The notes under the pieces: model-generated
Database searches by the model: none
The model's input: only the letters and a program-made list of their open reading frames with translations
What the model was told of the DNA's origin: nothing
Shown here: piece by piece, positions 43,021 through 59,077 of the stretch
Numbering within the stretch: the first letter of the stretch is position 1
Layout: each line of letters starts with the position of its first letter
NCBI GenBank assembly: GCA_015056325.1
Contig: SVGL01000004.1
Coordinates: forward strand, 1-64,000
Direction of reading: 5' to 3'
DNA: 64,000 bases
From: Clostridiales bacterium
GTDB taxonomy: Bacteria > Bacillota > Clostridia > Christensenellales > Aristaeellaceae
Made by a program: the position numbers and the translations under genes

Positions 43021-43533
43021 ATGAGCGAGGTGCAGATCCGGGTGGAATTTGAGGATTTTTATCGCGAGAATTATCGGAAAGTGCTCATGTATTTGTGCAA
43101 ACACGGCATGCGGACGGATGATGCTGCCGATATGACGCATGACATCTTTGTGTATTGCTGGAATAAGTGGGACAGCTATGATCCAAGCAAGAGTGCGCCC
43201 AGCACCTGGCTGTTCATGATTGTGCGCTGCCGGTTCAAAAACTACCTGCGCGGCCGCAGGGAGAGTGTGGATATCGACGAGCTCTCCGGCGTGCTGGCGG
43301 ATGAAAATGCAACCGATATGGATCGGGCCATGTACCTGACGCAGCTGCGTGAAGAGCTGGCAGTGGCACTGGAGCAGCTGCCGGAGGTGCCGCGGCAGAT
43401 TGTGATTCTGCGGTATTTCAAGAACCTGTCCTGGGAGGAGACGGCATTGCGGGTGGGCGTGAGCCAGGGCAATGCCCGCGTGATCCTGTCACGGACGCTC
43501 AAAAAACTGGAAGCATTGCTGCAAACTGCTTGA
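43021..43533 (+). CDS. ECF-type RNA polymerase sigma factor
   Basis: 170 aa. Region 2 (about 10-80) with FEDFYRENYRKVLMYL and the -10 recognition stretch DMTHDIFVYCWNKW; region 4 (about 110-165) with LPEVPRQIVILRYFKNLSWEE and a helix-turn-helix GVSQGNARVILSRTLKKLE. No region 3, as in ECF sigmas. First gene of a long operon for peptide export and phospho-signalling; no membrane anti-sigma gene is adjacent, but a STAS-FHA protein is encoded downstream. The ATG at 43021 follows GAGGAGGG; longer in-frame starts overlap the promoter. It may drive the precursor peptide promoters. Confidence 0.88.
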   Translation: MSEVQIRVEFEDFYRENYRKVLMYLCKHGMRTDDAADMTHDIFVYCWNKWDSYDPSKSAPSTWLFMIVRCRFKNYLRGRRESVDIDELSGVLADENATDMDRAMYLTQLREELAVALEQLPEVPRQIVILRYFKNLSWEETALRVGVSQGNARVILSRTLKKLEALLQTA

Positions 43534-43545
43534 TGAGGTGATCGT

Positions 43546-44436
43546 ATGGCTGATCTGTACAGAAAGTCCGCGCTGGAGAAGATTTCCAACCCTGAACAGC
43601 TGGACAAGGCCCTGGTGGTGACCAGTCCGCTTTCCTGGCTGGCCCTAGTGGCGGTGACGCTGATCCTGGTGGTGACGGTTGTGTGGTCCATCGTGGGCCG
43701 CATCCCGGAGACGCTGACGCTGGGCGGATATGTGGTGGCCGGCAACGGCAATGTGAGCGCCGTTTATTCCGATTGGACTGGTGTTGTTCAGAAAGTCCAT
43801 GTGCACAAGGGCGACCTGATTTACGATAAGTCGCCGTTGGTGGATATTATGTTGCCCGATGGTAACCTAAAAACGATTGAGTCCGTTATGAATGGTCGTG
43901 TGACCACTGTGGCGGTGCAGGAAAGACAGGAACCGAGCAGCGGCTCGCTCATTCTGTATTTTGCACCGACGGACGGCAAGCTGAATCAGGCGAACGGTCA
44001 GCCTGTGCTGCGAAATCAGCTGGTGGTCTGCTATGTTCCTTCAAAGGCTGGCAGCGACATGTCCGGTCAGCTGCAGAAGGGTAATCGTGTGCATCTGACC
44101 CCTGCGGGCGAGAATAGTCAGTCTGCTGGTCACATGATGGGCACGGTTTTGTGTGTGGAGAAGTACGACGCCTCGCAGGATAGCGTGAAGCTGGTGACTG
44201 GTAGCGAACAGGCTTACAGCGATAACGCCGGCAACGGTGCGATCAAGGCAGTCGTTGTCCTGCTGGATGAACGCCAGGACGGCACCCCCGGCAAAAACCC
44301 CTATGTCTGGTCCAATCCCAAGGGACAGAATCTGACGGTGGATAACGGCGATACCTTCACTGTGCGCATCATCGTCAAGGAAGTGCGGCCGATTGAGAAG
44401 CTCTTTGCCAAGATCGGCGAAGTGTTGGGGTGGTAA
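43546..44436 (+). CDS. NHLM-type exporter: HlyD-like membrane fusion protein
   Basis: 296 aa. Short cytoplasmic start, one transmembrane helix (about 30-52), then an extracellular part with the biotinyl-lipoyl-like hairpin signature SDWTGVVQKVHVHKGDLIY and a C-terminal beta region. The family normally stands with two ABC transporters in NHLM bacteriocin clusters, exactly as here (ABC genes 3 bp and 2.2 kb downstream). It probably forms the extracellular extension of the exporter. ATG preceded by TGAGGTG. It lacks the long coiled coil of Gram-negative HlyD, as expected for a Gram-positive envelope. Confidence 0.85.
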   Translation: MADLYRKSALEKISNPEQLDKALVVTSPLSWLALVAVTLILVVTVVWSIVGRIPETLTLGGYVVAGNGNVSAVYSDWTGVVQKVHVHKGDLIYDKSPLVDIMLPDGNLKTIESVMNGRVTTVAVQERQEPSSGSLILYFAPTDGKLNQANGQPVLRNQLVVCYVPSKAGSDMSGQLQKGNRVHLTPAGENSQSAGHMMGTVLCVEKYDASQDSVKLVTGSEQAYSDNAGNGAIKAVVVLLDERQDGTPGKNPYVWSNPKGQNLTVDNGDTFTVRIIVKEVRPIEKLFAKIGEVLGW

Positions 44437-44439
44437 GCA

Positions 44440-46587
44440 ATGAAGAGCAATTACCGGAAAACGCCGGTCATCTATCAGATGGAAGCCACCGAGTGCGGCG
44501 CGGCTTCGCTGTCGATGGTCTTTGCCTACTATGGGCGCTATATGCCCCTGGAGGAGATGCGCGTGGAGACCGGCGTCTCCCGCGATGGCTGCAATGCGGC
44601 CAATATCATCCGCGCCGCCCGTAAATACGGCCTGGAGGGCAAGGGACGCCGCTGTGAGCCGGACAAGCTTCGTACCCTCAGAACGCCCTGCATCCTCCAT
44701 TGGAATTTCAATCACTTTGTGGTGCTGGAAGGTTTCAAGGGAAAGGTAGCCTATATCAACGACCCGGCTGTGGGCCGACGCCGTGTCACCTGGGAGGAGC
44801 TGGATGACTGCTTCACCGGCGTGGTGCTGACCTTTGAAAAGACCCCTGCGTTCATAAAAAACAAGAAGAAGGACACCCTCGGGCGCTTCATCCGCGGCAG
44901 AATCCGCGGACAGTATGGCGTGATCTTCAAGCTCATGTACATCGGTATGCTGCTGGTGTTCCCGGGCCTTATTCTGTCGGTGCTGTCCCAGGTGTTTATT
45001 GATGACGTCCTGGGACGCGGCTTTACGGACTGGGTGGTCAAAATCCTCCTGGCGATGGGCGCGTGTGTGCTGCTGAAGATAGGCCTGAGCTATTATCGTG
45101 ACCTGATGCTGCAGAAGCTCAAGAGCAAGATGTCCCTGTTGTCTAGCTATGGCTTCCTGAGCCATCTGCTCAAGCTGCCCATGGTCTTCTTTGATCAGCG
45201 CTACCCTGGTGATCTGGTGGATCGCATGGGCAACAATGATGAGGTGAACGACTTCCTTGCCGGCGAACTGGCGGAAACGGTGCTGAACATTGGCATCGCG
45301 CTGTTCTATCTGGTTATCCTCCTGCTCTATGACTGGCGGCTGACCCTGGTGGGCATGATCTCGGTGGTGGTATGTATTGCCACGACGATCCTCAGCCGCA
45401 GGCGGATGGCGGATGCAAACATGAAGATGCAGATGACCGGCGGTAAGCTCTATGGCGCGCTGTGTGCGGGCATCGGCATCACTGACACCATCAAGGCCTC
45501 CGGCGTGGAGCATGAGTATGCCACGAAGATCCTGGGCTACCAGGCGAAGGTGGCCAACGATGAACAAAAGACCAACCGCTTCCAGCAGCTGATCGGCGTG
45601 ATCCCGGACGCTGCCAGCGCAGTGACGGACATCCTGCTGCTTCTGACTGGCGGTCTGCTGGTCATCAACGGCGAGATGACCACCGGTATGCTGGTGGCCT
45701 TTAACACGCTGTTTGACTCTTTTGCGGAGCCTGTTAATTCCCTGGTGAACTTTGCCAACAAGATTCAGGCGCTCAAGTCCAACATGAGCCGCGTGGAGGA
45801 TATCGTCAGCTATCCTGCGGATGATGAAGAAAACAGCCGGGAGGATGCAGCCATTCGCTACCGCAAGCTCAGCGGCCGGGTGGAACTGCAGGATGTGGCC
45901 TTTGGCTACAGCCGCCTCAAGCCGCCGCTGGTGGAGCATTTCGACTTCAGCCTTCTGCCGGGACAGTCCATCGCTTTTGTCGGTCCCTCCGGTTGCGGCA
46001 AGTCCACCGTGGGCAAACTGGTGTCCGGCCTGTATCACCCCTGGGAGGGCCGCGTGCTTTTTGATGGAAGCACCCGTGCTGACATTGCCAAGGAGGATCT
46101 GAACGCATCCATCCAGACCGTCAGCCAGAAGATCACCCTGTTCTCCGGCACCGTCAAGGACAACCTGACCATGTGGAATGACGCTATCCCCGAGGAGGAC
46201 ATGGTCCAGGCGGCCAAGGACGCCTGCATTCATGACTTTATTGTCTCCCAGCCCGGCGGGTATCAGTATATGCTGACGGAGAATGCCTCCAACCTGTCCG
46301 GCGGCCAGCGCCAGCGCATGGAAATTGCCCGCGCGCTGACCACCAACCCCACCATTCTGATCATGGATGAGGCCACGAGTGCTCTGGATGCGCTGGTGGA
46401 AAAGCAAATCCTGGATAATATCCGCCGCCGCGGCTGCACCTGCATCATCGTGGCGCACCGCCTCAGCGCCTTCCGTGACTGTGACCAGATCCTGGTCATG
46501 AAGCAGGGCAAGATTGTGCAGCGCGGCAACCATGAATCGCTGATCGATGTGGACGGTCTGTACCGTGACATGATCGGCAGTCTGTGA
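44440..46587 (+). CDS. NHLM-type ABC transporter with C39 leader peptidase
   Basis: 715 aa. Residues 1-135 are a C39 cysteine peptidase: Cys19 in ATECGAAS, His92 in FNHFVVL, Asp108 in INDPAVG, a complete active site. Membrane domain about 150-430 (six helices). ATPase domain about 470-715 with Walker A VGPSGCGKST, signature NLSGGQRQR, Walker B LIMDEATSALD and His-loop VAHRLS. This class cuts precursor leaders after a two-Gly-type site and exports the core. The precursors at 54088-55665 carry such sites, so they are the likely cargo. The gene starts 3 bp after the HlyD-like gene. Confidence 0.95.
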   Translation: MKSNYRKTPVIYQMEATECGAASLSMVFAYYGRYMPLEEMRVETGVSRDGCNAANIIRAARKYGLEGKGRRCEPDKLRTLRTPCILHWNFNHFVVLEGFKGKVAYINDPAVGRRRVTWEELDDCFTGVVLTFEKTPAFIKNKKKDTLGRFIRGRIRGQYGVIFKLMYIGMLLVFPGLILSVLSQVFIDDVLGRGFTDWVVKILLAMGACVLLKIGLSYYRDLMLQKLKSKMSLLSSYGFLSHLLKLPMVFFDQRYPGDLVDRMGNNDEVNDFLAGELAETVLNIGIALFYLVILLLYDWRLTLVGMISVVVCIATTILSRRRMADANMKMQMTGGKLYGALCAGIGITDTIKASGVEHEYATKILGYQAKVANDEQKTNRFQQLIGVIPDAASAVTDILLLLTGGLLVINGEMTTGMLVAFNTLFDSFAEPVNSLVNFANKIQALKSNMSRVEDIVSYPADDEENSREDAAIRYRKLSGRVELQDVAFGYSRLKPPLVEHFDFSLLPGQSIAFVGPSGCGKSTVGKLVSGLYHPWEGRVLFDGSTRADIAKEDLNASIQTVSQKITLFSGTVKDNLTMWNDAIPEEDMVQAAKDACIHDFIVSQPGGYQYMLTENASNLSGGQRQRMEIARALTTNPTILIMDEATSALDALVEKQILDNIRRRGCTCIIVAHRLSAFRDCDQILVMKQGKIVQRGNHESLIDVDGLYRDMIGSL

Positions 46588-46597
46588 GGTGAACGAA

Positions 46598-49183
46598 ATG
46601 AACAAGATTCTCGTCACCCCAACGCGCCCCTTTGAAACGGTCAATGAGTCTGTTCAGGACGCCTTCCTGGTTGTCAGCGGCATGGCGCTGGTGTTCATTG
46701 AGCAGGAGCTCAAGGGCGAAAAGCGCCGGACGAGCTGCATTGCGCAGGTGAGCGAAGGCCAGATGATTCCGGGCTTCCGCTTTTCCCGTGGAGAAGAACA
46801 GTGGGGCTTCTTTGTGGTTCCCCAGGGGGAAGAGCTGCAGCTGGAGCGTTATCCTGGCTTTGCCACCCGTCGCTTACAGCAGGGATTCCTCAGCCAGTGC
46901 GGCGTGACGGCTGCAGCCGGGGTGTCCTTTGAGGAAAGCATGACCGAAATTCTGCATGCTCAGGCCCTGGTGGAGTCGATCACCATTATCCAGACGCAGA
47001 AGGGCGGCCAGCAGCTGAAGGCTGGCACAGCGGATCAGATCAAGCGCGCCTTTGAGGGCGATATGATGCCCGCCCTCGGCGTGGATGCGCAGAAGGACCC
47101 TATGTACAAGGCGGTGGCCTATGCCTGCCACTCGGCAAAGATTCCCCTGGCTGCGAAGGAGAAGCTGGATCGGATCAGGGCGAAAAAGCTGACGGTGATG
47201 GACATCGCCAAGGCTTCTGGCTTCCTGTGCCGCGATGTGGTGCTGGAAAAAGAATGGTACCACAATGACTGCGGTGTGATCATCAGCGACTTGGACGGTG
47301 TGCCGGTGGCCTGCATCCCCAAGACCTCAGGCCGGTACTACCTGTACCGCAGCGACACGGGGGAGAAGGAACTGCTGGATAGAAAGACTGCTGCGGAGAT
47401 TAACCCCAAGGCGTTTGCCATCGGTCGTGCCCTGCCCAAGGGCAAGGTGAGCAAGAAGGATATTGTTTCCTTCGCCGTAAAGAGCGTACTGCCAGGCGAT
47501 ATCTTCTGGGTGGTACTGCTGGGCGTGGTGGGCGTGCTGATCGGCATGCTGCTCCCCACGCTGAACCAGCAGGTCTTTGACGAGTACATCCCCGTGGCAC
47601 AGACGTCGCCGCTGTTTTCCCTGTGCATGCTGATCCTGACATTCACCATCGGCAACCTGTTTTTCAGCATGACCAAGAGCCTGTCCGAGCACCGCATTTC
47701 CAGCCGGGTTTCTTATGATTTGCAGAATGCGATTTATTACCGTCTGTTCAGCATGCCGGAAGCCTTCTTTCGCAAGCATAGCAGTGCGGATCTGGCGCAG
47801 CGGATGATGGGCTTCGGCTCGGTTGCTGGCCAATTTGTTAATGCCGTTGTGGTGACCGGTGTTTCCACGCTGTTCTCCATGATTTACCTGTTCCAGATGA
47901 TCGGCTATTCCGGCAAGCTGACGGGGATCTCCCTGCTGATGGTGCTGGTGTATGTGGTGGCGGTGTTTGTTATCTCCCTGTGCTCCATGAAGCTCAATGC
48001 ATCCATCATGGAGGAGGATGGCGAGGCCACAGGCATGCTGTACCAGTTCCTCAGCGGCGTTGACAAGATCCGCATGGCCGGCTGCGAGCAGCGTGTGATC
48101 TATGAATACATGGTGCCTTACAGCTCGGTACAGGCCAAGGGAATCCGCAAGAACCGCATCGACAGCGTGGGTCAGACCCTGGGCGGCGTGATCTCCTCTG
48201 TTTTCTCCATGGTGCTGTATTACCTGATTGTCAACAAAAAGCTGGAGATTTCCATCGGCACCTTCATGGCCTTCAACTCGGCCTTCGGTGCGCTGTCTTC
48301 GGCGCTTTTGTCCTTTGCATCCACGGCAATTCAGCTCTATGCCACCAAACCCATGCTCAAGCGCATCAGTCCTATCCTGCAGGAAGCCACTGAGGGCAGC
48401 CGCACGGAAGGGGAAAGCACCATTCCCGGCGATATCTCGGGTGCGGTTTCGGTGCAGAATGTATCCTTTGCCTATGACAAGGACGGCCCCCTGGTGCTCC
48501 ATGACATTAATCTGGAGATCAAGGCCGGTGAGTATATCGGTATCGTCGGTCCGTCGGGCTGCGGCAAATCCACGCTGATGAAGCTGCTCCTGGGTTTTGA
48601 AACCCCGGACAAGGGCAGCGTCAGCTATGACAATTTCGACATGGCCAGCACGGATAAGCGGGAGATCCGCAAGCAGCTGGGCGTGGTGCTGCAAAACGGC
48701 GGCTTGATCAGCGGCAGCATCCATGAGAACATCACCATCACCAATCCCAAGGCTACCATGCGCCAGGTGCGCGAGGTGATCCGCAAGGTCGGCTTGAAAG
48801 AGGACATCGACGCGATGCCCATGGGTGTGCATACCATCGTCAGCGAGAGCGCCAGCATGCTCTCCGGCGGCCAGCAGCAGCGCATTCTGATTGCCCGCGC
48901 AATTATGAACAATCCCCAGGTGCTGCTCTTTGACGAGGCCACCAGTGCGCTGGACAACGTGACCCAGAAGATGGTCTGCGATAACCTGGACGCGATGAAC
49001 ATCACCCGTATCGTGATCGCGCACCGCCTGTCGACCATTGAGCATTGTGACCGCATCATCTTCCTCAACCGCGGCCGGATTGAGGAACAAGGAACCTTTG
49101 AGCAGTTGATGGCCAACCGGGGTATGTTCTACCAGATGGCTATCCGTCAGCTGCACGGAGACGAGGAGGAAGAGTACGAATGA
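46598..49183 (+). CDS. NHLM-type ABC transporter, second ATPase without peptidase
   Basis: 861 aa. The first about 280 residues form a soluble N-terminal region typical of this second NHLM transporter and contain no C39 active site; its function is not known. Membrane domain about 300-570 with six helices. ATPase domain about 610-861 with GPSGCGKST, MLSGGQQQR, LLFDEATSALD and IAHRLS. It likely forms a heteromer or tandem pump with the preceding transporter. The ATG at 46598 is preferred (GTGAGGTG seven bases before). The stop overlaps the next gene start by four bases. Confidence 0.92.
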   Translation: MNKILVTPTRPFETVNESVQDAFLVVSGMALVFIEQELKGEKRRTSCIAQVSEGQMIPGFRFSRGEEQWGFFVVPQGEELQLERYPGFATRRLQQGFLSQCGVTAAAGVSFEESMTEILHAQALVESITIIQTQKGGQQLKAGTADQIKRAFEGDMMPALGVDAQKDPMYKAVAYACHSAKIPLAAKEKLDRIRAKKLTVMDIAKASGFLCRDVVLEKEWYHNDCGVIISDLDGVPVACIPKTSGRYYLYRSDTGEKELLDRKTAAEINPKAFAIGRALPKGKVSKKDIVSFAVKSVLPGDIFWVVLLGVVGVLIGMLLPTLNQQVFDEYIPVAQTSPLFSLCMLILTFTIGNLFFSMTKSLSEHRISSRVSYDLQNAIYYRLFSMPEAFFRKHSSADLAQRMMGFGSVAGQFVNAVVVTGVSTLFSMIYLFQMIGYSGKLTGISLLMVLVYVVAVFVISLCSMKLNASIMEEDGEATGMLYQFLSGVDKIRMAGCEQRVIYEYMVPYSSVQAKGIRKNRIDSVGQTLGGVISSVFSMVLYYLIVNKKLEISIGTFMAFNSAFGALSSALLSFASTAIQLYATKPMLKRISPILQEATEGSRTEGESTIPGDISGAVSVQNVSFAYDKDGPLVLHDINLEIKAGEYIGIVGPSGCGKSTLMKLLLGFETPDKGSVSYDNFDMASTDKREIRKQLGVVLQNGGLISGSIHENITITNPKATMRQVREVIRKVGLKEDIDAMPMGVHTIVSESASMLSGGQQQRILIARAIMNNPQVLLFDEATSALDNVTQKMVCDNLDAMNITRIVIAHRLSTIEHCDRIIFLNRGRIEEQGTFEQLMANRGMFYQMAIRQLHGDEEEEYE

Positions 49184-50397
49184 GCCAGCGAAGCGCAGGC
49201 AACAACTGGATCATATATACCACGGCAGACGGCGCAACGCTTGCGGTGGATCAGGCGGAGAAGAATCAGTCTGCCATTTGGTGGCTCAGCGGCGTGGCCC
49301 GCGGTGACATCTGTCAGCAGCTGGAGGCTGATTTGCAGGCGTGTGCAGCCCGGATGGATCTGCTGGTGCTGGTGCTCAAGGATGTTACCGATATCAGCAG
49401 CGAGTGCCTGCAGATGCTTGTGCGCCTGCAAAAGGAAGTGCTGGATTGTACCGATGGCGAGCTGCGGCTGGTCAATGCTGGCGGTGCAGTGGCGGAAAAG
49501 CTGACCCGGCTGCGCGTCCATCTGGCGCTGAATGTGACAGAGGAAACCCTGGAGCAGCCCAAGACAGATCGTCCGGCGGTTGATACAGCGGGGAAAAAAT
49601 CGGTTAGGCACGAGCTGTTCACTGATTACGCCGCTGTGGAGCAGCAGGAAACTGCAGCGCAGCAGACCACCCCGGAACAGGAAGCGCCCGCCACGCCTGT
49701 GGAATCCGGCCTACTGGTGAAGTCCAGCGAGTCGGATGGTGCAGCGACGAAGTGGATGCTGATTGACCATAGAAATGGAACCATTTACCGCGGCGGCAGG
49801 TCGGAAGTGGTAATCGGCCGCCTGCAGGAGTGCGATATCACCCTGCCGATGCCGTCTATCAGCCGCAGCCATGTGAAAATCACCTTCCGCGAGGACAAGT
49901 GGTGGGTGGAGGATCTGAACTCCAAGTTCGGCACCAAGGTGGATGGTCAACTGCTGACTGCCAATACCCCTGTGGCGCTGGCGCGGCGCACGGCTTCCAT
50001 CCAGCTTTCCCGGTTCACCTTCGAGTGGGTATCAGGCGCTTGCTGCGCGTTGATTGATGCGCAGGAGGCTGCGCAAGGCCCTGTGGGTAAGCTGGTTCAT
50101 GAGGCCAGCGGTGAATCCGTGTGTATCGTGGGAAAACAGATGAAGATCGGCCGCCGGTATCTGCCTCAGGGGCACCAGTGGAACTGCTCCCAGGTGGTCA
50201 GCGGTGAACACGCTCAGATCTGCCGGGAGCAGGATGGCTGGTACCTTGTTGATCTGAACTCCAGGAACGGTACGTATCTGGATGATGCCAAGCTGACAGC
50301 AGATGTACCTGCCAAGCTGCAGGACGGTGCCCGGATCAGCCTGGGTATGATGGGCGAAAAGTTCCGCTGGATGGAAGGAAGAGGAGAGGAAGCTTGA
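49180..50397 (+). CDS. STAS-like domain fused to two FHA domains
   Basis: 405 aa, cytoplasmic. Residues 1-130 resemble a STAS/anti-anti-sigma fold (alternating strands and helices; LLVLVLKDVTDISSECLQML in the place of the phospho-switch helix). A variable linker follows. FHA1 (about 195-280) has VIGRLQECDITLP and SISRSHVKITF, the phospho-threonine binding residues Arg, Ser and His present. FHA2 (about 305-400) has KIGRRYL, VSGEHAQI and NSRNGTYLDD. FHA domains bind phospho-threonine made by Ser/Thr kinases, one of which is encoded 2 genes downstream. A STAS-FHA-FHA protein beside a sigma factor suggests phospho-dependent control of transcription or export; this is inference. Confidence 0.85.
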   Translation: MSQRSAGNNWIIYTTADGATLAVDQAEKNQSAIWWLSGVARGDICQQLEADLQACAARMDLLVLVLKDVTDISSECLQMLVRLQKEVLDCTDGELRLVNAGGAVAEKLTRLRVHLALNVTEETLEQPKTDRPAVDTAGKKSVRHELFTDYAAVEQQETAAQQTTPEQEAPATPVESGLLVKSSESDGAATKWMLIDHRNGTIYRGGRSEVVIGRLQECDITLPMPSISRSHVKITFREDKWWVEDLNSKFGTKVDGQLLTANTPVALARRTASIQLSRFTFEWVSGACCALIDAQEAAQGPVGKLVHEASGESVCIVGKQMKIGRRYLPQGHQWNCSQVVSGEHAQICREQDGWYLVDLNSRNGTYLDDAKLTADVPAKLQDGARISLGMMGEKFRWMEGRGEEA

Positions 50398-52043: not shown

Positions 52044-52063
52044 ATGTTTGAGGAGGAACCCAC

Positions 52064-54070
52064 ATGATGCACGAAGGCGAGCGCAGCCAGGATTTTGAGT
52101 TCCAATGGGACAACTGGCGCGTGAAGGATGTCATAGGCAGAGGCTCCTTCAGCACGGTGTACACAGTGGTCAAAGAAGAATTCGGTACGACCTATGAAGC
52201 GGCGCTCAAGCACATTTCCATCCCGAAAAGTGAAGCTGAGTACAGAGAAGCCTTCAACGTATCGTTTTCCTCGGAGGAGCAGGCCTGGAACTATTACAGA
52301 GATGGTGCTCAGCGGCTGAAAAAAGAGATCGATCTGATGTTCATGCTGCAGGGACATAGCCACATTGTGAATTATCAGGCCCACAAGGTCACAGAAAAAA
52401 AGAATATGCCGGGCTATGATGTGTACATCCGCATGGAAAAGCTCAGGACTTTGCCCCAGATCATTCGGGAAAAGGGGGATCTGAGCCAGGAGGAAGTGCT
52501 CAAAGTCGGCCTGGACATTTGTGATGCGCTCAAAGCCGTTCATGCTGAATACGTTCTGCACAGAGATATCAAGCTGGAGAATGTTTTCTTCGGTAAGGGT
52601 GAATACAAGCTGGGCGACTTTGGCGTGTCCCGCACACTGGGGCATATGGACAAGGTGACGACCGCTGGTACGCCCCACTACATGGCGCCGGAGATCTTCC
52701 GGCGTGCAGCGGTGGATTATTCGGCGGATATCTACTCCCTGGGCATCATGCTATATCGGCTGCTCAATGGCAATCGGGTGCCTTTCCTGCCGGCAGACAG
52801 GTCGATTGCGCCGACTTGGGATCAGGAGCAGGAGGCGTTCAGCCGCCGCATGAATGGTGAAACGCTGCCAATGATTCCCGGTGTTCGGGAGGACCTGATG
52901 CAGGTGGTGCTCAAGGCTTGTGCTTACCGGCCTGAAGATCGCTATCAGAGCGCGTTGGAGATGGCAGCGGAGCTGGAAGGCTGCCGCGGGCCGAAACCGG
53001 TGCAGTATCCGAATCAGGGCAATTCGGTGGACTGGGGGGGCGACTGGTCTTTCAATCATTCGTCCTCTGACCAGAACTTGAACGGCCACATAGATCCCAA
53101 CGCAACGGTGATCGTTCCGGTCAATGACGGACCCGCGCAGGGGATGGAATCAGGCGGGCAAGGTGCGTCTACGGCTGATACGGAGCAACCTCCCGAAAAG
53201 CCGCAAGTTCCACCAGCGGTGGAAAAGGAAAAGCCTGCTAAGCCGGACAAGAAAACCAAGCATACGAAACGGCCTGCGAATCGCAAGAAGCTCCCGATTG
53301 GTGCCGTGTTCGCAGTAATCGCCCAGCTGGTCAAGGAATGCGGCGCGGCGATTGCCAAGGGCGCGAAGGCTGCGGTGACCGCATGCGCAGGAATTTTTGC
53401 AGCGATTGTCGGTTTGTTCAAGAGAAAGCCGAAAACGAAGCCTCCGATACAGGCAACGACAGCGACCAAACGTCCACAGCCTCAAAGGCAGCCTGCAAGC
53501 AATGATATCTGGAATGGGGAGAATGATCCTTGGGGATTGGGCGGCAGCACTGCAGCTGTAACCCCTGACCTTGGTGGTTCTCGTAAGGCTGTGTCACCCG
53601 GTGACTGGAACACAGGGGCAATATCGAATGGGAATCATTGGGACCCCTTCACGCCCCAGAGTTCTCGCAGAAGGCGGTTCTCCCTTTCGCCGGAACTGCT
53701 CAAGATTGGCGGCATTGCAGCGGTGGCGCTTGCAGTTGTGGTGCTGCTGATTGTGATGCTGGGTTCGGGCGGCCGGGCGGACTCGCTGGAGCTGAAGTAT
53801 TCCATCACAGCCGAGGGCAATGTCTTCCTGACATGGGAAGCGCTGCCGAAGGCGGACTGCTACGAAGTCTATGGCGGCGAGGCGGATGGCAATATGTCTG
53901 TCGACTGGCAGCTGCTGGCGGAGCGTGACGACAAGCAGAACTACCATATCAGCAATAAGTTCCTGCAGGCAGAGCAGGCGGGCTATCAGGTGAAGGCGAT
54001 CCTCAGGAACGGGGAAGAAATCATCTCCAACACCGTGTATGTGACGCAGCAGGAACGTACGGCCAAATGA
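52064..54070 (+). CDS. Transmembrane Ser/Thr protein kinase
   Basis: 668 aa. Kinase domain about 18-300: glycine loop GRGSFSTVY, Lys49 in AALKHI, catalytic Asp168 in HRDIKLEN, Asp185 in DFGVSR, APE motif. All catalytic residues are present. A Pro/Lys-rich linker contains a moderately hydrophobic Ala-rich stretch (about 412-447), then a clear membrane helix (about 545-567), and an outside C-terminal domain of about 100 residues with fibronectin III-like pattern (GNVFLTWEALPKADCYEVY). Unlike PASTA kinases it has no PASTA repeats. Its probable substrates are Thr residues in proteins of the same operon that are read by FHA domains. ATG follows TTGAGGAGG. Confidence 0.9.
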   Translation: MMHEGERSQDFEFQWDNWRVKDVIGRGSFSTVYTVVKEEFGTTYEAALKHISIPKSEAEYREAFNVSFSSEEQAWNYYRDGAQRLKKEIDLMFMLQGHSHIVNYQAHKVTEKKNMPGYDVYIRMEKLRTLPQIIREKGDLSQEEVLKVGLDICDALKAVHAEYVLHRDIKLENVFFGKGEYKLGDFGVSRTLGHMDKVTTAGTPHYMAPEIFRRAAVDYSADIYSLGIMLYRLLNGNRVPFLPADRSIAPTWDQEQEAFSRRMNGETLPMIPGVREDLMQVVLKACAYRPEDRYQSALEMAAELEGCRGPKPVQYPNQGNSVDWGGDWSFNHSSSDQNLNGHIDPNATVIVPVNDGPAQGMESGGQGASTADTEQPPEKPQVPPAVEKEKPAKPDKKTKHTKRPANRKKLPIGAVFAVIAQLVKECGAAIAKGAKAAVTACAGIFAAIVGLFKRKPKTKPPIQATTATKRPQPQRQPASNDIWNGENDPWGLGGSTAAVTPDLGGSRKAVSPGDWNTGAISNGNHWDPFTPQSSRRRRFSLSPELLKIGGIAAVALAVVVLLIVMLGSGGRADSLELKYSITAEGNVFLTWEALPKADCYEVYGGEADGNMSVDWQLLAERDDKQNYHISNKFLQAEQAGYQVKAILRNGEEIISNTVYVTQQERTAK

Positions 54071-54087
54071 TGCAGCAAGGAGAGCCT

Positions 54088-54351
54088 ATGGACAACAAGG
54101 AAATGCTTTTCGAGCAGATGAAGAATCCGGCCTTTGTGGATGCGCTGGGCCAGGCAAAATCCCTGGAGGAAGCAGTGCGTCTGTTGAATCACATGGGCAT
54201 AGCAGTAGCGCCGCAGGAGCTGCAGCGGGTTCAGCTGGGGGAGGACCGGGAGGGATACCTGACTGAGGATGCGTTGGAGTTCGTTTCTGGCGGCGCCCCG
54301 GAGGTCGGTGTCACACAGCTGCTGATGCCCAAACTTTTGCAAAAAAAGTGA
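54088..54351 (+). CDS. Nif11-like leader precursor peptide with a short core
   Basis: 87 aa. The leader (1-69) has the Nif11-like pattern: Phe/Met-rich start, NPAFVDALGQAKSLEEAV, HMGIAVAPQEL, then LTEDALEFVSGG ending in Gly-Gly. The predicted core is 18 residues (APEVGVTQLLMPKLLQKK), basic at the end, without Cys or Ser. It follows the kinase gene by 17 bp, with AAGGAG before the ATG at 54088. It has no leader-repeat promoter in front, unlike the next three peptide genes. Likely cut and exported by the C39 transporter. Confidence 0.82.
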   Translation: MDNKEMLFEQMKNPAFVDALGQAKSLEEAVRLLNHMGIAVAPQELQRVQLGEDREGYLTEDALEFVSGGAPEVGVTQLLMPKLLQKK

Positions 54352-54369
54352 GAAAAGATTTGCAAACGG

Positions 54370-54401
54370 TGTAACAGCGTGTCGCGCAGCGTGTATATAA
54401 G
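54370..54401 (+). promoter_or_regulatory. Repeated promoter-like block before precursor gene 2a
   Basis: TGTAACA (54370-54376) and GCAGCGTGTATATAAG (ending 54401). The same pair with identical spacing recurs at 54808 and 55246. It can be read as an ECF-type promoter (TGTAAC, 14 nt, CGTGTA) or as a weak sigma-A type (GTAACA, 17 nt, TATATA). Confidence 0.55.
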
Positions 54402-54456
54402 AGTGAAAGCACACAAGTGCAAAAGACAAAACAGAAAGATGAGAGGAGAACAAAAC

Positions 54457-54786
54457 ATGGAAAAGAAGATCATTAATCAGGAAGAACTGCTGGAGCGACT
54501 GGAAGATGCGCAGACTACGGAAGAAGTCATGGAACTGATGGCGGAAGTAGGCGTGGAACTGAACCCTGAAGAGGTTGCCAAGGCACAGGCAGAGGCGGAA
54601 GCTGAGCTGAACGAGGAAGACCTTGAAGAGGTGACCGGCGGGAGCATCATTGGTACTGCGGTTGTGATCGCCAAGACGATCGCTGCAATCGCGTCCGGCA
54701 TCAAGGCTGCGATTTGGCTTGCCAAGCTGTCTGGCCAGGCGTACAAGACCGCCAAGAACTGGCTGAAGAAGAACGGTTACATTTAA
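54457..54786 (+). CDS. Nif11-like precursor peptide, duplicated gene copy 1
   Basis: 109 aa. Leader 1-62: acidic, with LLERLEDAQTTEEVMELMAE, GVELNPEEV, an Ala-Glu-rich helix and LNEEDLEEVTGG. After the Gly-Gly (61-62) comes a 47-residue core rich in Ala, Ile and Lys (begins SIIGTAVVIAK, ends AKNWLKKNGYI), with no Cys. It looks like a cationic membrane-active helix, as in unmodified class II bacteriocins. The ATG follows GAGAGGAG. An upstream in-frame extension is the transcribed leader and not protein. Protein identical to copy 2. Confidence 0.88.
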   Translation: MEKKIINQEELLERLEDAQTTEEVMELMAEVGVELNPEEVAKAQAEAEAELNEEDLEEVTGGSIIGTAVVIAKTIAAIASGIKAAIWLAKLSGQAYKTAKNWLKKNGYI

Positions 54787-54807
54787 TCGAAAAAAGTTTA
54801 GAAAGCC

Positions 54808-54839
54808 TGTAACAACACGTAGTGCAGCGTGTATATAAG
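54808..54839 (+). promoter_or_regulatory. Repeated promoter-like block before precursor gene 2b
   Basis: TGTAACA (54808-54814) and GCAGCGTGTATATAAG, same spacing as at 54370 and 55246. The bases between the boxes differ among copies while the boxes are kept. Confidence 0.55.
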
Positions 54840-54894
54840 AGTGAAAGCACACAAGTGCAAAAGACAAAACAGAAAGATGAGAGGAGAACAAAAC

Positions 54895-55224
54895 ATGGAA
54901 AAGAAGATCATTAATCAGGAAGAACTGCTGGAGCGACTGGAAGATGCGCAGACTACGGAAGAAGTCATGGAACTGATGGCGGAAGTAGGCGTGGAACTGA
55001 ACCCTGAAGAGGTTGCCAAGGCACAGGCAGAGGCGGAAGCTGAGCTGAACGAGGAAGACCTTGAAGAGGTGACCGGCGGGAGCATCATTGGTACTGCGGT
55101 TGTGATCGCCAAGACGATCGCTGCAATCGCGTCCGGCATCAAGGCTGCGATTTGGCTTGCCAAGCTGTCTGGTCAGGCGTACAAGACCGCCAAGAACTGG
55201 CTGAAGAAGAACGGTTACATTTAA
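54895..55224 (+). CDS. Nif11-like precursor peptide, duplicated gene copy 2
   Basis: 109 aa, the same protein as copy 1 (leader 62 aa ending TGG, core 47 aa). Differences from copy 1 are silent. It has its own promoter-like block and GAGAGGAG ribosome site 110 bp after copy 1. Duplication doubles gene dosage and gives each gene its own promoter, suggesting that the peptide is needed in large amounts. Probable substrate of the C39-ABC exporter encoded upstream. Confidence 0.88.
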   Translation: MEKKIINQEELLERLEDAQTTEEVMELMAEVGVELNPEEVAKAQAEAEAELNEEDLEEVTGGSIIGTAVVIAKTIAAIASGIKAAIWLAKLSGQAYKTAKNWLKKNGYI

Positions 55225-55245
55225 TCGAAAAAAGTTTAGAAAGCC

Positions 55246-55277
55246 TGTAACAACACGCAGTGCAGCGTGTATATAAG
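55246..55277 (+). promoter_or_regulatory. Repeated promoter-like block before precursor gene 3
   Basis: TGTAACA (55246-55252) and GCAGCGTGTATATAAG. The block and the untranslated leader through the ribosome site are almost identical to those of the two preceding genes, although the coding region differs. Confidence 0.55.
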
Positions 55278-55332
55278 AGTGAAAGCACACAAGTACAAAA
55301 GACAAAACAGAAAGATGAGAGGAGAACAAATC

Positions 55333-55665
55333 ATGGATAAGCAGATGCTGACTGCCGAAGAGCTTCAGGCGAAGGCAAAGGAACAGGGCTACGAGCTGTC
55401 TCTGGAGGACTGTGAAGAGGCGATTGATGCTCTGGAAAATACCGATATGTCTGATGTGGAGAATATGAGTGAAGATTCTCTGGAGAATGTTGTCGGTGGT
55501 GCGGTGACCAAGGCTTACATCACCGCGTATATTCGTCCGTGGTTCGGCATTCGGGGTTCGTTTGGCAAGATTACCGCTTCTGAGCGAGAGATGATTGCAA
55601 AGGCCCAGAAGCTCTTTGGCAAAGTGGGCCTAGCCGTTGCGACTGCCATTGCTTTGACCAAGTAA
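55333..55665 (+). CDS. Third precursor peptide with divergent core
   Basis: 110 aa. Leader 1-56: LTAEELQAKAKEQGYELSLEDCEEAID, then acidic DMSDVENMSEDSLENVVGG ending in Gly-Gly. Core of 54 residues (starts AVTKAYITAYIRPWFGIRG, ends GLAVATAIALTK), cationic, aromatic at its N-terminal part, hydrophobic at its C-terminal part, no Cys. The leader differs from the Nif11-like ones but keeps an ELSLEDC/GG style. The 5' untranslated leader is shared with the duplicated genes, which points to cassette-like exchange of coding parts. The core could be the partner peptide of a two-component bacteriocin; not proven. Confidence 0.84.
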   Translation: MDKQMLTAEELQAKAKEQGYELSLEDCEEAIDALENTDMSDVENMSEDSLENVVGGAVTKAYITAYIRPWFGIRGSFGKITASEREMIAKAQKLFGKVGLAVATAIALTK

Positions 55666-55707
55666 TGGTATCCCACCCGCATCCATTAGATGAATCGAGG
55701 TTCCGTT

Positions 55708-55890
55708 ATGATTGAGAAGCTGCTGTTTTTGATGAGGGATATGGAGGATAACTTCTCGCCTAAGGATCGGCTGAGCAAGCTGATCAAGCGGGAAGACGAA
55801 ATGACCGAACTGGCGCTGGATGACCTCTATGAGGTGGCTGCGGCGGCGCAGATTCCCCCCTTCAATCCGGAGAAGAAGCGGGAAAAGTAA
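55708..55890 (+). CDS. Small leader-like protein without Gly-Gly site
   Basis: 60 aa, starting at the ATG preceded by GAGGT (55695-55699). Acidic-basic helix MIEKLLFLMRDMEDNF, then ELALDDLYEVAAAAQ, which mimics the ELSLDDLEEVAGG end of leader peptides but has Ala in place of both Gly. A short Pro/Lys-rich tail follows (IPPFNPEKKREK). Could be a degenerate precursor, an immunity or a regulatory peptide. It lies between the precursors and the vWA-FHA gene. Confidence 0.65.
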   Translation: MIEKLLFLMRDMEDNFSPKDRLSKLIKREDEMTELALDDLYEVAAAAQIPPFNPEKKREK

Positions 55891-55954
55891 ACGGGTACAC
55901 ATGGGGGGCAAAGCGAGGCTTTGCTTCCTATTGTTGTGCTTTGAAGGAGTGTTG

Positions 55955-58216
55955 ATGATGGAGCATACGGGCGTGTGGGCCAGATTGGCGTTGCTGTTGG
56001 CAGCGCTGATGCTGATGTGCTCCTTTGCCTTGGCAGAGGAGGCGTCACTGGAGATCCTGTCCTGCGTGCAGCAGGGGGATCAGGTGGTGCTGAACTTTGT
56101 GTGCCTGGATGAGCATAACGCACAGGTGGCATTGTCGCTGAACGCTGCGGATTGGACCGTCCGCGGCGCGGAAAGCCATGCGGACATGCGGGTGGATGGT
56201 GTCAGCCGCAACAATGGCGGGGTACACTACATCTTTGTCTATGAGACGTCCGCTGCGGTTGGCAGTGAGGCCTACAACGCCAGAACGCAGGCCCAGTGCA
56301 TTGAAGCGATGAAAGCGAGTGTCGATGAGCTCAAGCTGGGCGACAGCGTGAGCGTTGTTCAGCTGGGAAAGAAGCTGGAGATCATCCTCAACCATGCGGG
56401 CGACAAGGCAGGCATCGTTACGGCCTTGAATAAGCTGAAAAAGAACAGCGAAGGCGATGCTCCCAAGCTCTATGATCAGATTGGCGAAGCGCTTGATCAG
56501 CTGACAACCAAGGCTGGCGAGCGCACGGTAATGATCATCCTCTCTACAGGCATTGACAGCGGAAGCAAGCTGACAAAGTATGAGCTGGCCCAGCGTCTGG
56601 AAAATGCCCAGGTGTCAGTATATCCTGTGCTGGTGAAGGCAAGAAATGATACGCAAAGTGCCAGCGGCCTGGAGGCACTGTGTGTCCGCGGCGGTTACAT
56701 GCTGCAGGCGGACAGGGTCAAGAACCAGAATGAGATGGTGACTTTCCTCAAGGAGCTCCTGCCTGCTGTGCGCGACGTCTACACTTTGACTGCTCGGGCG
56801 ACAGATGCATCCTATAATGATCAAGCGGGGATGCTGCTTCGTGTATTCGTCCGCCACAATGGGGGCAAGATCAGCGGTGAAGCCCATCTGACGACGGATG
56901 ACCGGATGTACACGGTTGTCAGCGTTCCGGTGGCGGCAGCAACGGCTGCGCCTCAGACGGTGGAACCCATCGCAACCGCCACGGTTGAACCTCCTGTGCC
57001 GCAGGCGAGCGAGCCTGCAGCCACCGTGGGGGAGACAGTGAATGCAGAGGATAATACTCCTGTGCAGGAGGAGCCTGAAGCGACAGAGCCCATGCAGGAG
57101 GAACAGCCGGCACCAGCTGAAGTGACGCCTGTAACGGACTCCGACGCTGGTTCCGGGCTGATGACATACATCCTGCTGGGCGGCGGCGCGCTGGTTGTGC
57201 TGGCGGCGGTTGTGCTGGTGGTTGTGCTGGTCATGGGCAAGTCCAAGAAGGCAAAGGTACAGAAGCATGAAAAGGAGCGTCCTGCGGCATCGATCAATCC
57301 GCAATTTGGTGTGATGAAGGCAGGGACGGCGCCCGCGCCCACGACAGCTTCCGCTAAGGCAGAAAAGCCTGCAGAGTCTTCCAAGCCGACGTCCGCACCG
57401 GCCCCGACTTCGACGACGAATCCGGCGGATTTCTTTAACTCTGATCCCGCGCCAGCTCCTGTGAGTCCGCCAGCAACGGTTCGATCTGCGCCTGTACAGC
57501 AGATTGCCTGGAATATGGCGGTGGATGAGAGGAAGGCAGCGCCTGTGCAGTCCACTGGCTGGGAAAGCACGATGGATGAACGCCAGGCGCAGCAGAAGCA
57601 GCCTGCAAATCTGGATGTGACGCAGGACGAGCGCCAGGTAAAGCCGGCACAGTCTGAAAGTGTTGGCTGGCCGGTAACATCTGCGAATCTGGATGTGACG
57701 CAGGATGAGCGTCATGTGAAGCCGATCCAGTCTGCAAACTTCGATGTGACCAGGGACGAGCGCCAAGTGCAGCCTGCGGGTTTCGATGTAACCCGGGATG
57801 AGCGGCCTGTGCAGCCAGCGGCGTCTGCTGCTGATCAAACGGTCCAGGCCATGCAGTGGGAGCCGCATCTGATCCTGACCATTACTGATGCCAATGGCAC
57901 CCGGGAGATTGCCAAGCCGCTGGCAACCGGTGGTGAGATCACCCTGGGCCGAGAAAACACAGATATCCTTCTGGATCGCCATGACCATTCTATCAGCCGC
58001 AGCCATTTGTCCATCAAACTGACGGCCAGCAGCCTGGCGGTGGTGGATCATTCTGGAAACGGTACGATGGTGGACGGCCATCTTCTGCGCCACGGTGAGA
58101 CAAGACTGACCATCGGCAGTGAGATGCAGCTGGGCGGTCTGGATGAAGCCGCTGCAAACAGAGTGGCTACGGTTATCCGGGTGAAGGAGTTCCGGTATCC
58201 TGGTGCAACCCGCTGA
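55955..58216 (+). CDS. vWA domain, membrane helix, DVTxDER repeats and FHA domain
   Basis: 753 aa. Signal peptide (to about 27), extracellular vWA-like domain (about 30-340; FVYETSAAVGS in the MIDAS loop position, MIILSTGIDSG), a Pro/Glu/Thr-rich stalk, a membrane helix (about 402-428), and a cytoplasmic part. This contains a disordered Ala/Pro region, six loose repeats of the type DVTQDERQVKP (about 517-625), and a C-terminal FHA domain (about 635-740: ITLGRENTDILL, SISRSHLSI, NGTMVDG). Thr residues in the repeats are candidate kinase targets. So one protein links the outside (vWA) to phospho-recognition inside. ATG at 55955 or 55958 follows GAAGGAG. Confidence 0.85.
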   Translation: MMEHTGVWARLALLLAALMLMCSFALAEEASLEILSCVQQGDQVVLNFVCLDEHNAQVALSLNAADWTVRGAESHADMRVDGVSRNNGGVHYIFVYETSAAVGSEAYNARTQAQCIEAMKASVDELKLGDSVSVVQLGKKLEIILNHAGDKAGIVTALNKLKKNSEGDAPKLYDQIGEALDQLTTKAGERTVMIILSTGIDSGSKLTKYELAQRLENAQVSVYPVLVKARNDTQSASGLEALCVRGGYMLQADRVKNQNEMVTFLKELLPAVRDVYTLTARATDASYNDQAGMLLRVFVRHNGGKISGEAHLTTDDRMYTVVSVPVAAATAAPQTVEPIATATVEPPVPQASEPAATVGETVNAEDNTPVQEEPEATEPMQEEQPAPAEVTPVTDSDAGSGLMTYILLGGGALVVLAAVVLVVVLVMGKSKKAKVQKHEKERPAASINPQFGVMKAGTAPAPTTASAKAEKPAESSKPTSAPAPTSTTNPADFFNSDPAPAPVSPPATVRSAPVQQIAWNMAVDERKAAPVQSTGWESTMDERQAQQKQPANLDVTQDERQVKPAQSESVGWPVTSANLDVTQDERHVKPIQSANFDVTRDERQVQPAGFDVTRDERPVQPAASAADQTVQAMQWEPHLILTITDANGTREIAKPLATGGEITLGRENTDILLDRHDHSISRSHLSIKLTASSLAVVDHSGNGTMVDGHLLRHGETRLTIGSEMQLGGLDEAAANRVATVIRVKEFRYPGATR

Positions 58217-58235
58217 GACGGAGGAATGAACTAGA

Positions 58236-59033
58236 ATGAGGATTGAAGCTTGTGCGGTGAATCACAAGGGACTTGTCAGGCTAAACAACGAGGATAACTT
58301 CTACCTCTCCGGCAGCTTTATTGCCAAGGAACTGGTGGATCAGCCCTCCTGCCTGACCAAGCTGCTGACGGATCAAAGCCCGGTGATTGCCGCTGTTTGC
58401 GACGGCGTGGGCGGCGCCCAGGCAGGAGAAGTGGCCGCGTATACGGTGGTGAGCGCCCTGGGGGCCCTGATGTCCGGCTTTAATCAGGTGCATGATACGG
58501 AGCAGATCACCATTGCCATGCGCCGCGTTTCTCAGCGGATCGCCAGCCTCCGCCAGAATGACACCGAATCCATGGGCGCAACCATCGTCATGGCGTGCAT
58601 CCAGGGGGAACGCTTGCTGATCACCAACGTGGGTGACAGCCGTGCATACCTGATGCGATCGGACAGGCTTTATCAGCTCAGTGAAGATCACAGCGAAGTA
58701 CAGCGGTTGTACAACATGGGAATCATCACCCGCGAGGAGATGAACACTCACCCCAGGAGACACGTCATTACCCAGTACCTGGGATTGCCGGAGACCGAGC
58801 TGCTGATTGAGCCGGCTTATTCAGAGATCATCCAGCTGCAGCCGGGCGATCGGATACTGCTGTGCTCAGATGGCGTGACGGATATGCTCAGCGACGAGGA
58901 TATTGCGCAGATCCTGCAGAATGTACCCAATTGCGAAACAGCAGCACAGACGCTGGTGACCAGCGCCCTTCAAAACGGCGGCAAGGATAATACCACGGCT
59001 CTGCTTCTGCAGGTGCTGCAGGAAAATGAATAG
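58236..59033 (+). CDS. PP2C-family Ser/Thr phosphatase
   Basis: 265 aa, a single PP2C domain without membrane helix. Metal-binding motifs: NNEDNF, AAVCDGVGGAQAGE, TNVGDSRAYL, LLCSDGVTDML and GGKDNTTAL. It would remove phosphate from Thr/Ser residues modified by the transmembrane kinase of the same operon, making the signal reversible. The last gene of the operon, followed at once by a terminator. ATG follows CGGAGGA. Confidence 0.94.
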   Translation: MRIEACAVNHKGLVRLNNEDNFYLSGSFIAKELVDQPSCLTKLLTDQSPVIAAVCDGVGGAQAGEVAAYTVVSALGALMSGFNQVHDTEQITIAMRRVSQRIASLRQNDTESMGATIVMACIQGERLLITNVGDSRAYLMRSDRLYQLSEDHSEVQRLYNMGIITREEMNTHPRRHVITQYLGLPETELLIEPAYSEIIQLQPGDRILLCSDGVTDMLSDEDIAQILQNVPNCETAAQTLVTSALQNGGKDNTTALLLQVLQENE

Positions 59034-59041
59034 GAACAGAG

Positions 59042-59077
59042 CAAAGCGCCGGAGATATCATGTCTCCGGCGCTTTTA
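59042..59077. terminator. Terminator of the 16-kb operon
   Basis: GCGCCGGAGA / TCTCCGGCGC 10-bp stem with a 7-nt loop, followed by TTTT. It also serves the minus-strand gene ending at 59086, with a shorter T run in that direction. Confidence 0.85.

Follow-up and report, generated by a model that had tools for sequence, protein, structure and literature searches.

Background

Exporters of the NHLM/NHLP type comprise a C39-peptidase ABC transporter, a second ABC transporter and an HlyD-like protein, and are found with Nif11-like leaders (PMC2887384). The paper describing them (Haft, Basu and Mitchell 2010; PMC2887384) has one mention of a kinase and none of sigma, FHA, phosphatase or forkhead; in Burkholderia, a large Ser/Thr kinase is found alongside NHLP clusters. 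In type VI secretion, a kinase (PpkA), a PP2C phosphatase (PppA) and an FHA protein (Fha) are encoded with the secretion machine; PpkA phosphorylates TssL, and Fha binding activates secretion (PMC3953482). Extracytoplasmic function (ECF) sigma factors of group ECF43 are linked to transmembrane Hanks-type kinases: PknS phosphorylates EcfK and induces a type VI system, the regulon including a secretion system in Xanthomonas (PMC13147305), and PknT/EcfP is a further pair (PMC8999054). Here we describe a locus at positions 43021-59033 of a 64,000-nucleotide stretch of a Clostridiales bacterium genome (GCA_015056325.1, contig SVGL01000004.1; 'the window'), in which an NHLM-type exporter is joined to a kinase, a PP2C phosphatase and FHA proteins.

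The analysis shows a linkage of exporter and signalling genes conserved in one clade and a new finding, a promoter element with genome-dispersed precursors; the mechanism outlined below is plausible. In general terms, the locus would be a self-contained release system for an ECF-transcribed peptide arsenal, with an exporter gated by a Thr-phosphorylation pathway, a description to which we give an even chance.

Compared with NHLM/NHLP exporters (PMC2887384), the locus adds FHA, STAS, kinase, PP2C, vWA and leucine-rich repeat (LRR) proteins; it has a short HlyD-like protein, a second ABC transporter with a longer N-terminus than in most control loci (see below) and no modifying enzyme that we could see. 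With the type VI pathway it shares a kinase, a PP2C phosphatase and FHA proteins encoded with a secretion machine, but the machine is a peptide-exporting ABC pair and a STAS domain (with TIR in three relatives) is added. No type VI core gene was found among the 14 proteins of the run and seven flanking proteins, and the TagH model matches the FHA parts only (57.8 and 26.4 bits; cut-off 120.25). Our best reading of the comparison is that the pathway would work like the type VI Thr-phosphorylation pathway without being a member of it. With the ECF43 pairs the locus shares an ECF gene linked to a transmembrane kinase; unlike them, it largely keeps the acidic sigma 2.2 motif, adds FHA and PP2C proteins and has the exporter in the same run. 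Membership of ECF43, whose hallmark is the loss of DAED with Thr in place, was rejected since the window factor reads DAAD.

Among the matches listed in a search of the open-access literature (subscription journals being outside its scope, so that absence is not proof), no paper joins Nif11/NHLM export with FHA, PP2C or ECF control. Nif11 peptides are cited in one paper whose discussion of methanobactins brings in a FecI-type ECF factor (PMC3621798); in another, the same expression table contains Nif11 genes and a TagH gene of type VI secretion (PMC8436566).

Organisation of the locus

The source genome (3.06 Mb in 63 contigs, the window being part of a 173-kb contig) carries at 43021-59033 fourteen open reading frames (ORFs), all on the + strand, with spacings of -4 to about 109 nt between neighbours. 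They encode, in order, an ECF sigma factor, an HlyD-like protein, the two ABC transporters (ABC1 and ABC2), a STAS-FHA-FHA adaptor, an LRR protein, a kinase, precursors 1-4, a 66-aa protein (orf66), a vWA-transmembrane-FHA protein and a PP2C phosphatase, with 4-nt overlaps at the ABC2/STAS-FHA, STAS-FHA/LRR and kinase/precursor 1 junctions. Domains of the 14 proteins were assigned using Pfam and NCBIfam models with curated cut-offs. An earlier sequence-only reading had proposed a one-strand run with small gaps or overlaps, and every gene it named is present on the + strand in its expected place. Domain scans, motifs and hydropathy support its ECF factor, NHLM-type exporter, four precursors, kinase, PP2C phosphatase, vWA protein and LRR lipoprotein, and the Pfam scan bears out its three FHA domains in two proteins. 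It had overlooked the STAS domain and the 66-aa leader-like ORF.

The ECF sigma-70 factor (43021..43533, +, 170 aa) matches TIGR02937 with 98.1 bits (cut-off 42.9). It is followed by the HlyD-like membrane fusion protein (43546..44436, +), whose 296 aa are 33-36% identical to the homologues in four clade relatives, which are likewise short (275-313 aa). ABC1, with C39 peptidase, permease and ATPase (44440..46587, +, 715 aa), and ABC2 (46589..49183, +, 864 aa) both exceed the cut-offs of the NHLM models, with 970.6 bits for TIGR03796 (cut-off 853.3) and 739.5 bits for TIGR03797 (cut-off 709.4).

Directly behind ABC2 lies the STAS-FHA-FHA adaptor (49180..50397, +, 405 aa), with no transmembrane segment by hydropathy, an FHA match of 114.4 bits in two stretches and a STAS match of 24.5 bits (cut-off 22.6). 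The BspA-type LRR protein (50394..52043, +, 549 aa; LRR_5 214.8 bits, cut-off 27.7) has a lipoprotein-like signal (LMTGC). The transmembrane Hanks-type Ser/Thr kinase (52064..54070, +, 668 aa; Pkinase 132.3 bits, cut-off 31.7) has HRD, DFG and APE motifs; hydropathy places its kinase domain inside, followed by two weaker hydrophobic stretches at 412-452, a strong transmembrane segment at 548-566 and an outer part of about 100 aa. Near the end of the run, the vWA-transmembrane-FHA protein (55955..58216, +) is predicted to have a signal peptide, a vWA-like outer domain (VWA_2 27.2 bits, cut-off 27; metal site degenerate by eye), one transmembrane segment, a cytoplasmic linker and a C-terminal FHA domain (39.4 bits). 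The PP2C-type Ser/Thr phosphatase (58236..59033, +, 265 aa; 77.7 bits, cut-off 20.3) has NED, DGVGG, GDSR, SDG and DN motifs. From hydropathy, the vWA domain and the LRR lipoprotein should lie outside, the FHA domain of the vWA protein inside, and the STAS-FHA-FHA and PP2C proteins should be soluble.

Pattern matching finds GR and S..H in FHA domains 1 and 3 but only S..H in domain 2, whose GR was read by eye; the usual Asn of NGT is absent from domain 1. The whole genome has three FHA matches, all in the two FHA proteins of the locus, and two Pkinase matches, one of them in the locus. The linker of the vWA-FHA protein contains DER repeats (57506..57817, +; six copies by eye, five matched by pattern) with Thr in five of six copies (VTxDER or STMDER; by eye). 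These are plausible candidates for kinase targets and for phosphothreonine docking sites of FHA domains.

Conservation of the linkage

Relatives were sought with ABC1 as query (E <= 1e-190) in 300 genomes of the family, 386 of the order and 391 of the class. The family search gave 37 matches in 35 genomes, including a group of five: the window, G280 and G299 (both 64% identical), G148 (62%) and G166 (64%, on a 3.2-kb contig with no readable context); the next match falls to 47%. One further member, G504 (58%), was found in another family of the order, and no other match above 45% in the class search. In a tree of 63 ABC1 proteins these six form a single clade with support 100/99 (the G504 row has only 681 residues, being cut by the fetched stretch).

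All five clade loci with context, from two families, contain ECF, HlyD, ABC1, ABC2, STAS, FHA, LRR and kinase genes, and four contain PP2C; the contig of the remaining one, G299, ends 0.5 kb behind a radical SAM gene. The order ABC2-STAS-FHA-LRR is constant in 5/5, with STAS and FHA fused in the window and a TIR domain at the start of the FHA protein in G280, G299 and G148 (none was matched on that of G504). The kinase and PP2C genes are placed differently: G148 has three kinases and a PP2C gene on the other strand, G504 has PP2C and kinase genes upstream of the ECF gene, and in G280 a second ECF gene accompanies a kinase and two PP2C genes, which lie upstream of the exporter by 4 to 10 kb. 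Since these genes differ in place and strand between loci, the linkage has outlived rearrangement; it persists through about 40% ABC1 divergence. LRR outer parts on one of the three G148 kinases and on the G504 kinase echo the separate LRR protein of the window. No homologue of the vWA protein was found in the relatives' loci by homology search, so this part is special to the window.

The control set of 57 further NHLM loci, in 58 stretches totalling 0.95 Mb, takes in all non-clade ABC1 matches of the family and class searches plus picked loci: 27 belong to the family, 10 to the class and 10 to the genus (among these the second system of the source genome, described below), and 10 are named. 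Ten of the controls come from a set of at least 80 loci matched by generic ABC motifs; 80 of these, checked with the window proteins, gave one kinase match, at the edge of L150, a locus with a generic ABC match. L078, L079, L081, L087, L112 and L148 (26-30% identity with most of the query spanned) were left out of the count. The median context around ABC1 is 6.0 kb upstream and 10.0 kb downstream. Kinase, PP2C and FHA genes were each found in 0/57 control loci (5, 5 and 6 queries, respectively; E <= 1e-3), compared with ECF in 19, STAS in nine (weak), LRR in two and orf66 in one, further orf66-like genes being seen by eye. The supposition that exporter and signalling genes are linked is thus borne out (kinase and FHA in 5/5 and PP2C in 4/5 loci of one clade, compared with 0/57), and the contrary possibility, that they are never linked in related genomes, is contradicted by five linked loci in two families.

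A search with the STAS-FHA-FHA protein as query gave matches in 4/300 family genomes (E <= 1e-8) and 1/396 order genomes (E <= 1e-12), the source genome being counted in both. The singleton status that this suggested was discarded, as the ABC1 query recovered relatives; the FHA and STAS parts are too divergent to serve as query. Two weak FHA matches (G161 and G260) fall in other loci of the same family, with vWA and FHA genes beside EssC/WXG100-like genes (by eye) in G161, a stretch that we take to be type VII, and with vWA-FHA genes in G260. Their architecture is different, and no NHLM-level exporter match was found in either stretch (one generic ABC match, 25%, in G161). A second, ordinary NHLM system (L034; G000:C27:129185-134275) lies on the window's own contig about 70-80 kb away. 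It has an ECF gene and a Nif11-type precursor to itself; searches of it for kinase, PP2C and FHA genes gave no match.

Precursors and the promoter element

All four precursors have double-glycine leaders (by eye). Precursor 1 (54067..54351, +) has an 18-aa core and a weak match to TIGR03798. Precursor 2 (54457..54786, +), with an amphipathic 47-aa core of charge +7, and precursor 3 (54895..55224, +), identical to it in protein sequence, lie at the borderline of the 32.3-bit cut-off for Nif11 leaders (31.6 bits by protein scan and 32.5 by genome search) and resemble a 438-bp tandem duplication. Precursor 4 (55333..55665, +; 54-aa core, charge +7) is divergent yet has the same upstream sequence; its match to TIGR03798 (E 1e-4) is below the cut-off. 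In the genome search precursors 4 and 1 score 23.8 and 17.9 bits, under the Nif11-leader cut-off.

Before precursors 2, 3 and 4 lie three copies of TGTAAC-N14-CGTGTATA (54370..54397, 54808..54835 and 55246..55273, all +; motif search), which has what we take to be the general shape of ECF promoters. The source genome contains seven exact sites of the short form TGTAAC-N14-CGTGTA and eight of a longer form with at most one mismatch, the reversed control giving none in either case. Three sites are in the locus and five are distant. Behind the distant site on C34 is a 114-aa Nif11-type precursor and behind that on C25 a precursor pair of 105 aa (by eye) and 109 aa (by eye and leader model), so that the element precedes three further leader-bearing precursors at two distant sites. 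Those on C11 and C29 precede proteins with signal-like starts, one with an SH3 domain, and the fifth has no clear gene behind it. Of the seven Nif11-leader matches of the genome, four are in the locus, one is in the second NHLM system and two are just behind distant elements. Co-occurrence leads us to infer that the ECF factor of the locus reads this element.

In the relatives, an exact copy of the element lies ahead of the orf66 homologue in both G280 and G504, and another G504 copy ahead of a precursor. Copies with one mismatch precede two precursors in G504 and one in G280, and a further one in G148 is away from locus genes; those with two mismatches precede the HlyD gene and four additional precursors in G504. 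The five sequences were searched together (251 kb). By simple shuffling, 0.0 exact sites would be expected in them, 0.4 with at most one mismatch and 18.2 with at most two, so that the two-mismatch sites carry little weight alone. Two of the 17 genus mates (G005 and G012) have one exact short-form site each, with similar sequence but without the TATA part. As the 25 genomes searched contain five sites compared with two for the reversed control, a single exact hit means little alone.

The cores of precursors 2-4 and of the second C25 peptide are 35-54 aa long, with charges of +4 to +7, no Cys and helical moments of 0.45-0.63. The first C25 core (39 aa, charge +5, moment 0.23) has two Cys, and that of precursor 1 (charge +2, moment 0.13) has none. 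It is probable that the locus yields bacteriocin-like peptides that are short, cationic and amphipathic, with no modification visible here. The scans found no modifying enzyme of the kind that acts on ribosomally synthesized and post-translationally modified peptides (RiPPs) among the 14 proteins of the run or the seven flanking proteins. The sequence-only reading had contrasted this with NHLM clusters, where such enzymes are usual; the observation holds for the window, but radical SAM genes are present in two of the four relatives with context (G299 and G280) and YcaO also in G280, so the enzyme-free state is not typical of the clade.

The earlier proposal of a single 16-kb transcript is not supported as put. 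The internal ECF-type elements and a possible internal hairpin make the one-transcript picture too simple. This hairpin, a candidate terminator or attenuator between orf66 and the vWA-FHA gene (55893..55941, +; -26.2 kcal/mol, z -3.52), also renders doubtful the claim of no internal terminator. On the side of that claim, its T run is poor, and the region's 17 terminator-like sites do not clearly exceed the number expected by chance (13.0 in shuffles, standard deviation 3.4). The likely terminator of the run is a hairpin, AGCGCCGGAGA/TCTCCGGCGCT followed by Ts (59045..59076, +; by eye).

Proposed mechanism and alternatives

The most far-reaching reading, to which we give somewhat less than an even chance, is that a C39-type exporter has recruited a Thr-phosphorylation pathway of the kind known from type VI secretion: STAS/FHA adaptors (TIR-FHA in relatives) on the ATPase, a receptor-like kinase that takes LRR input and a PP2C phosphatase for reset would govern when a stock of ECF-transcribed precursors, some of them dispersed in the genome, is released. 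In the explanation that we prefer, the kinase and its LRR partner would sense an outside cue (envelope state, neighbours or an exported peptide), and the kinase would act on threonines, those of the exporter or of the vWA-FHA linker for instance. The FHA adaptors would bind these phosphothreonines, switching the assembled exporter on, and the phosphatase would reset the switch. The ECF factor would load the system by transcribing the precursors, which the C39 domain would cut at the double glycine during export. The STAS/FHA pair lies directly behind the exporter ATPase in 5/5 loci, and on the type VI analogy (PMC3953482) we favour gating of the assembled exporter.

The main rival, unlikely in our view, is that the phosphorylation module acts on transcription: the kinase would activate the ECF factor, directly or via orf66 or the FHA adaptors, turning the precursors on while the exporter is ungated. 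ECF gene and kinase do occur together in 5/5 clade contexts, the ECF-type elements precede precursors here, in G280 and in G504 as well as the orf66 homologue of the latter two, and there are precedents in EcfK/PknS (PMC13147305) and EcfP/PknT (PMC8999054). On the other hand, the FHA and STAS genes follow the exporter ATPase and not the ECF gene, and the 19 control loci with an ECF gene have no kinase that we could find. In an alignment of the six clade ECF factors, the sigma 2.2 motif also departs from the ECF43 hallmark, being DAED or EAED in four, DAET in one and DAAD in the window. This last point is not decisive, since other ECF groups linked to Ser/Thr kinases retain the acidic motif according to a review (PMC8999054). 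Exporter gating and kinase control of the ECF factor may both act.

It is less probable still that the signalling genes are an independent envelope-sensing cassette on a mobile island, travelling with the exporter without acting on it. The locus was probably acquired horizontally, because third-position GC is low (0.45-0.78 in nine locus genes compared with 0.80-0.86 in four neighbours) and the distribution of this ABC1 is patchy (5/300 family genomes, the source genome included, and 0/17 genus mates), as a mobile island would also predict. Such a cassette fits poorly with the start/stop codon overlaps in the window, the fixed position of STAS, FHA and LRR genes behind ABC2 and the linkage kept after rearrangement. 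A peptide-modifying role for the kinase seems to us very improbable. Kinase domains phosphorylate precursors in class III/IV lanthipeptide synthetases, and the domain in the window has a weak LanL match (62.4 bits against a cut-off of 650). The large kinase of Burkholderia NHLP clusters (PMC2887384) would also speak for such a role. Against it, the scans found no lyase or cyclase domain on the kinase, which has a transmembrane anchor as well as FHA and PP2C partners, and the cores of precursors 1-4 are without Cys.

Several observations weigh against exporter gating by phosphorylation, or limit the evidence offered for it. The HlyD-like protein is homologous to TIGR03794 (E 1.9e-29) but sub-threshold (102.8 bits, cut-off 156.2), for which reason we call the exporter 'NHLM-type', of a divergent clade. 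The STAS copies are very divergent (15-20% identity), and that of G148 reaches only 16.6 bits (cut-off 22.6), the others being over the cut-off. No promoter element was found before the exporter, kinase or PP2C genes in the window, nor any exact copy in G299, G148 or G166. A context of at least 2 kb upstream and 7 kb downstream of ABC1 is available for 34 of the 57 controls; in the other 23, short contigs could hide genes. The clade probably has one evolutionary origin; 5/5 is therefore not five independent trials, and the counts show conserved linkage rather than repeated invention. Finally, the source is a metagenome-assembled genome with 84.9% completeness and 5.25% contamination.

If gating is correct, the bacteriocin-type exporter would be under a Ser/Thr phosphorylation switch, in a conserved clade and together with dispersed precursor genes and a defined promoter element. 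The element and the dispersed genes together therefore allow a prediction of which orphan Nif11-type peptides are cargo of the system. A further suggestion is that unrelated secretion machines can share FHA-kinase-PP2C control, which would be portable between them. What we see in the genes looks like a system that may control the release of peptide weapons or signals.

Further features of the locus and its relatives

The 66-aa leader-like protein orf66 (55690..55890, +) has AAA at the double-glycine position of the precursors and gives no Pfam or NCBIfam family at E <= 1; its predicted structure is helical with low confidence (predicted template modelling score 0.30). Homologues are present in G280 (E 1.8e-6), G504 (1.1e-5) and G148 (0.0075), and none was found in the G299 locus. 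Similar proteins (consensus FDFQRF...L..DxLExVxAAG) adjoin the ECF gene in several ordinary NHLM loci, including L199:15972-16175, L181:10741-10935, L070:7266-7466 and L096:1464-1658. Five short members were without convincing Pfam matches, and four gave no match in NCBIfam. This family with its AAA/AAG ending accompanies ECF genes and has no model in the libraries tried; its members could act as anti-sigma factors or as leader-like regulators that escape cleavage.

A SpoIIAA/RsbV-type partner switch was rejected for the STAS domain. The run has no HATPase_c anti-sigma kinase, and the residue aligned (by eye) to the partner-switch Ser is E, G, S, G and A in the five copies, the position being placed by what we take to be the phosphoacceptor-Ser motif of such proteins.

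The N-terminal region of ABC2 has about 205 aa ahead of the part shared with most controls, which begins at residue 69-90 in 37/52 control ABC2 proteins; L061, L062 and L098 also have long forms. A low-confidence model (mean predicted local distance difference test score 66) has a cNMP-binding-like fold with 57 matches in the PDB (E <= 0.001), but TM-scores to the query are at most 0.25 for the best 50 of the 57, and this resemblance was judged too weak to build on.

Rfam gave no match at gathering thresholds over 30000-64000, and searches of plasmids and viral contigs gave none, the viral scan detecting close relatives only. The genes that follow the G148 locus (L169, G148:C2 beyond 80 kb) include phage-like ones and a recombinase-like ORF (by eye), a hint of mobility. 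DUF7005 proteins, unmatched in the window's run, occur in G299 (L166:2119-3003) and G280 (L164:7592-8629) with 210 and 223 bits. The TIR-FHA fusions behind the exporter are at L165:15112-16764, L151:9979-11634 and L168:17556-19040; in G148 the TIR domain seems (by eye) to have lost the usual Glu at what is presumably the catalytic position of TIR NADases. Receptor-like kinases with a transmembrane segment and a large LRR outer part are encoded at L168:4098-7589 (-) and L184:1973-4999 (-), a layout that recalls the LRR receptor kinases of plants.

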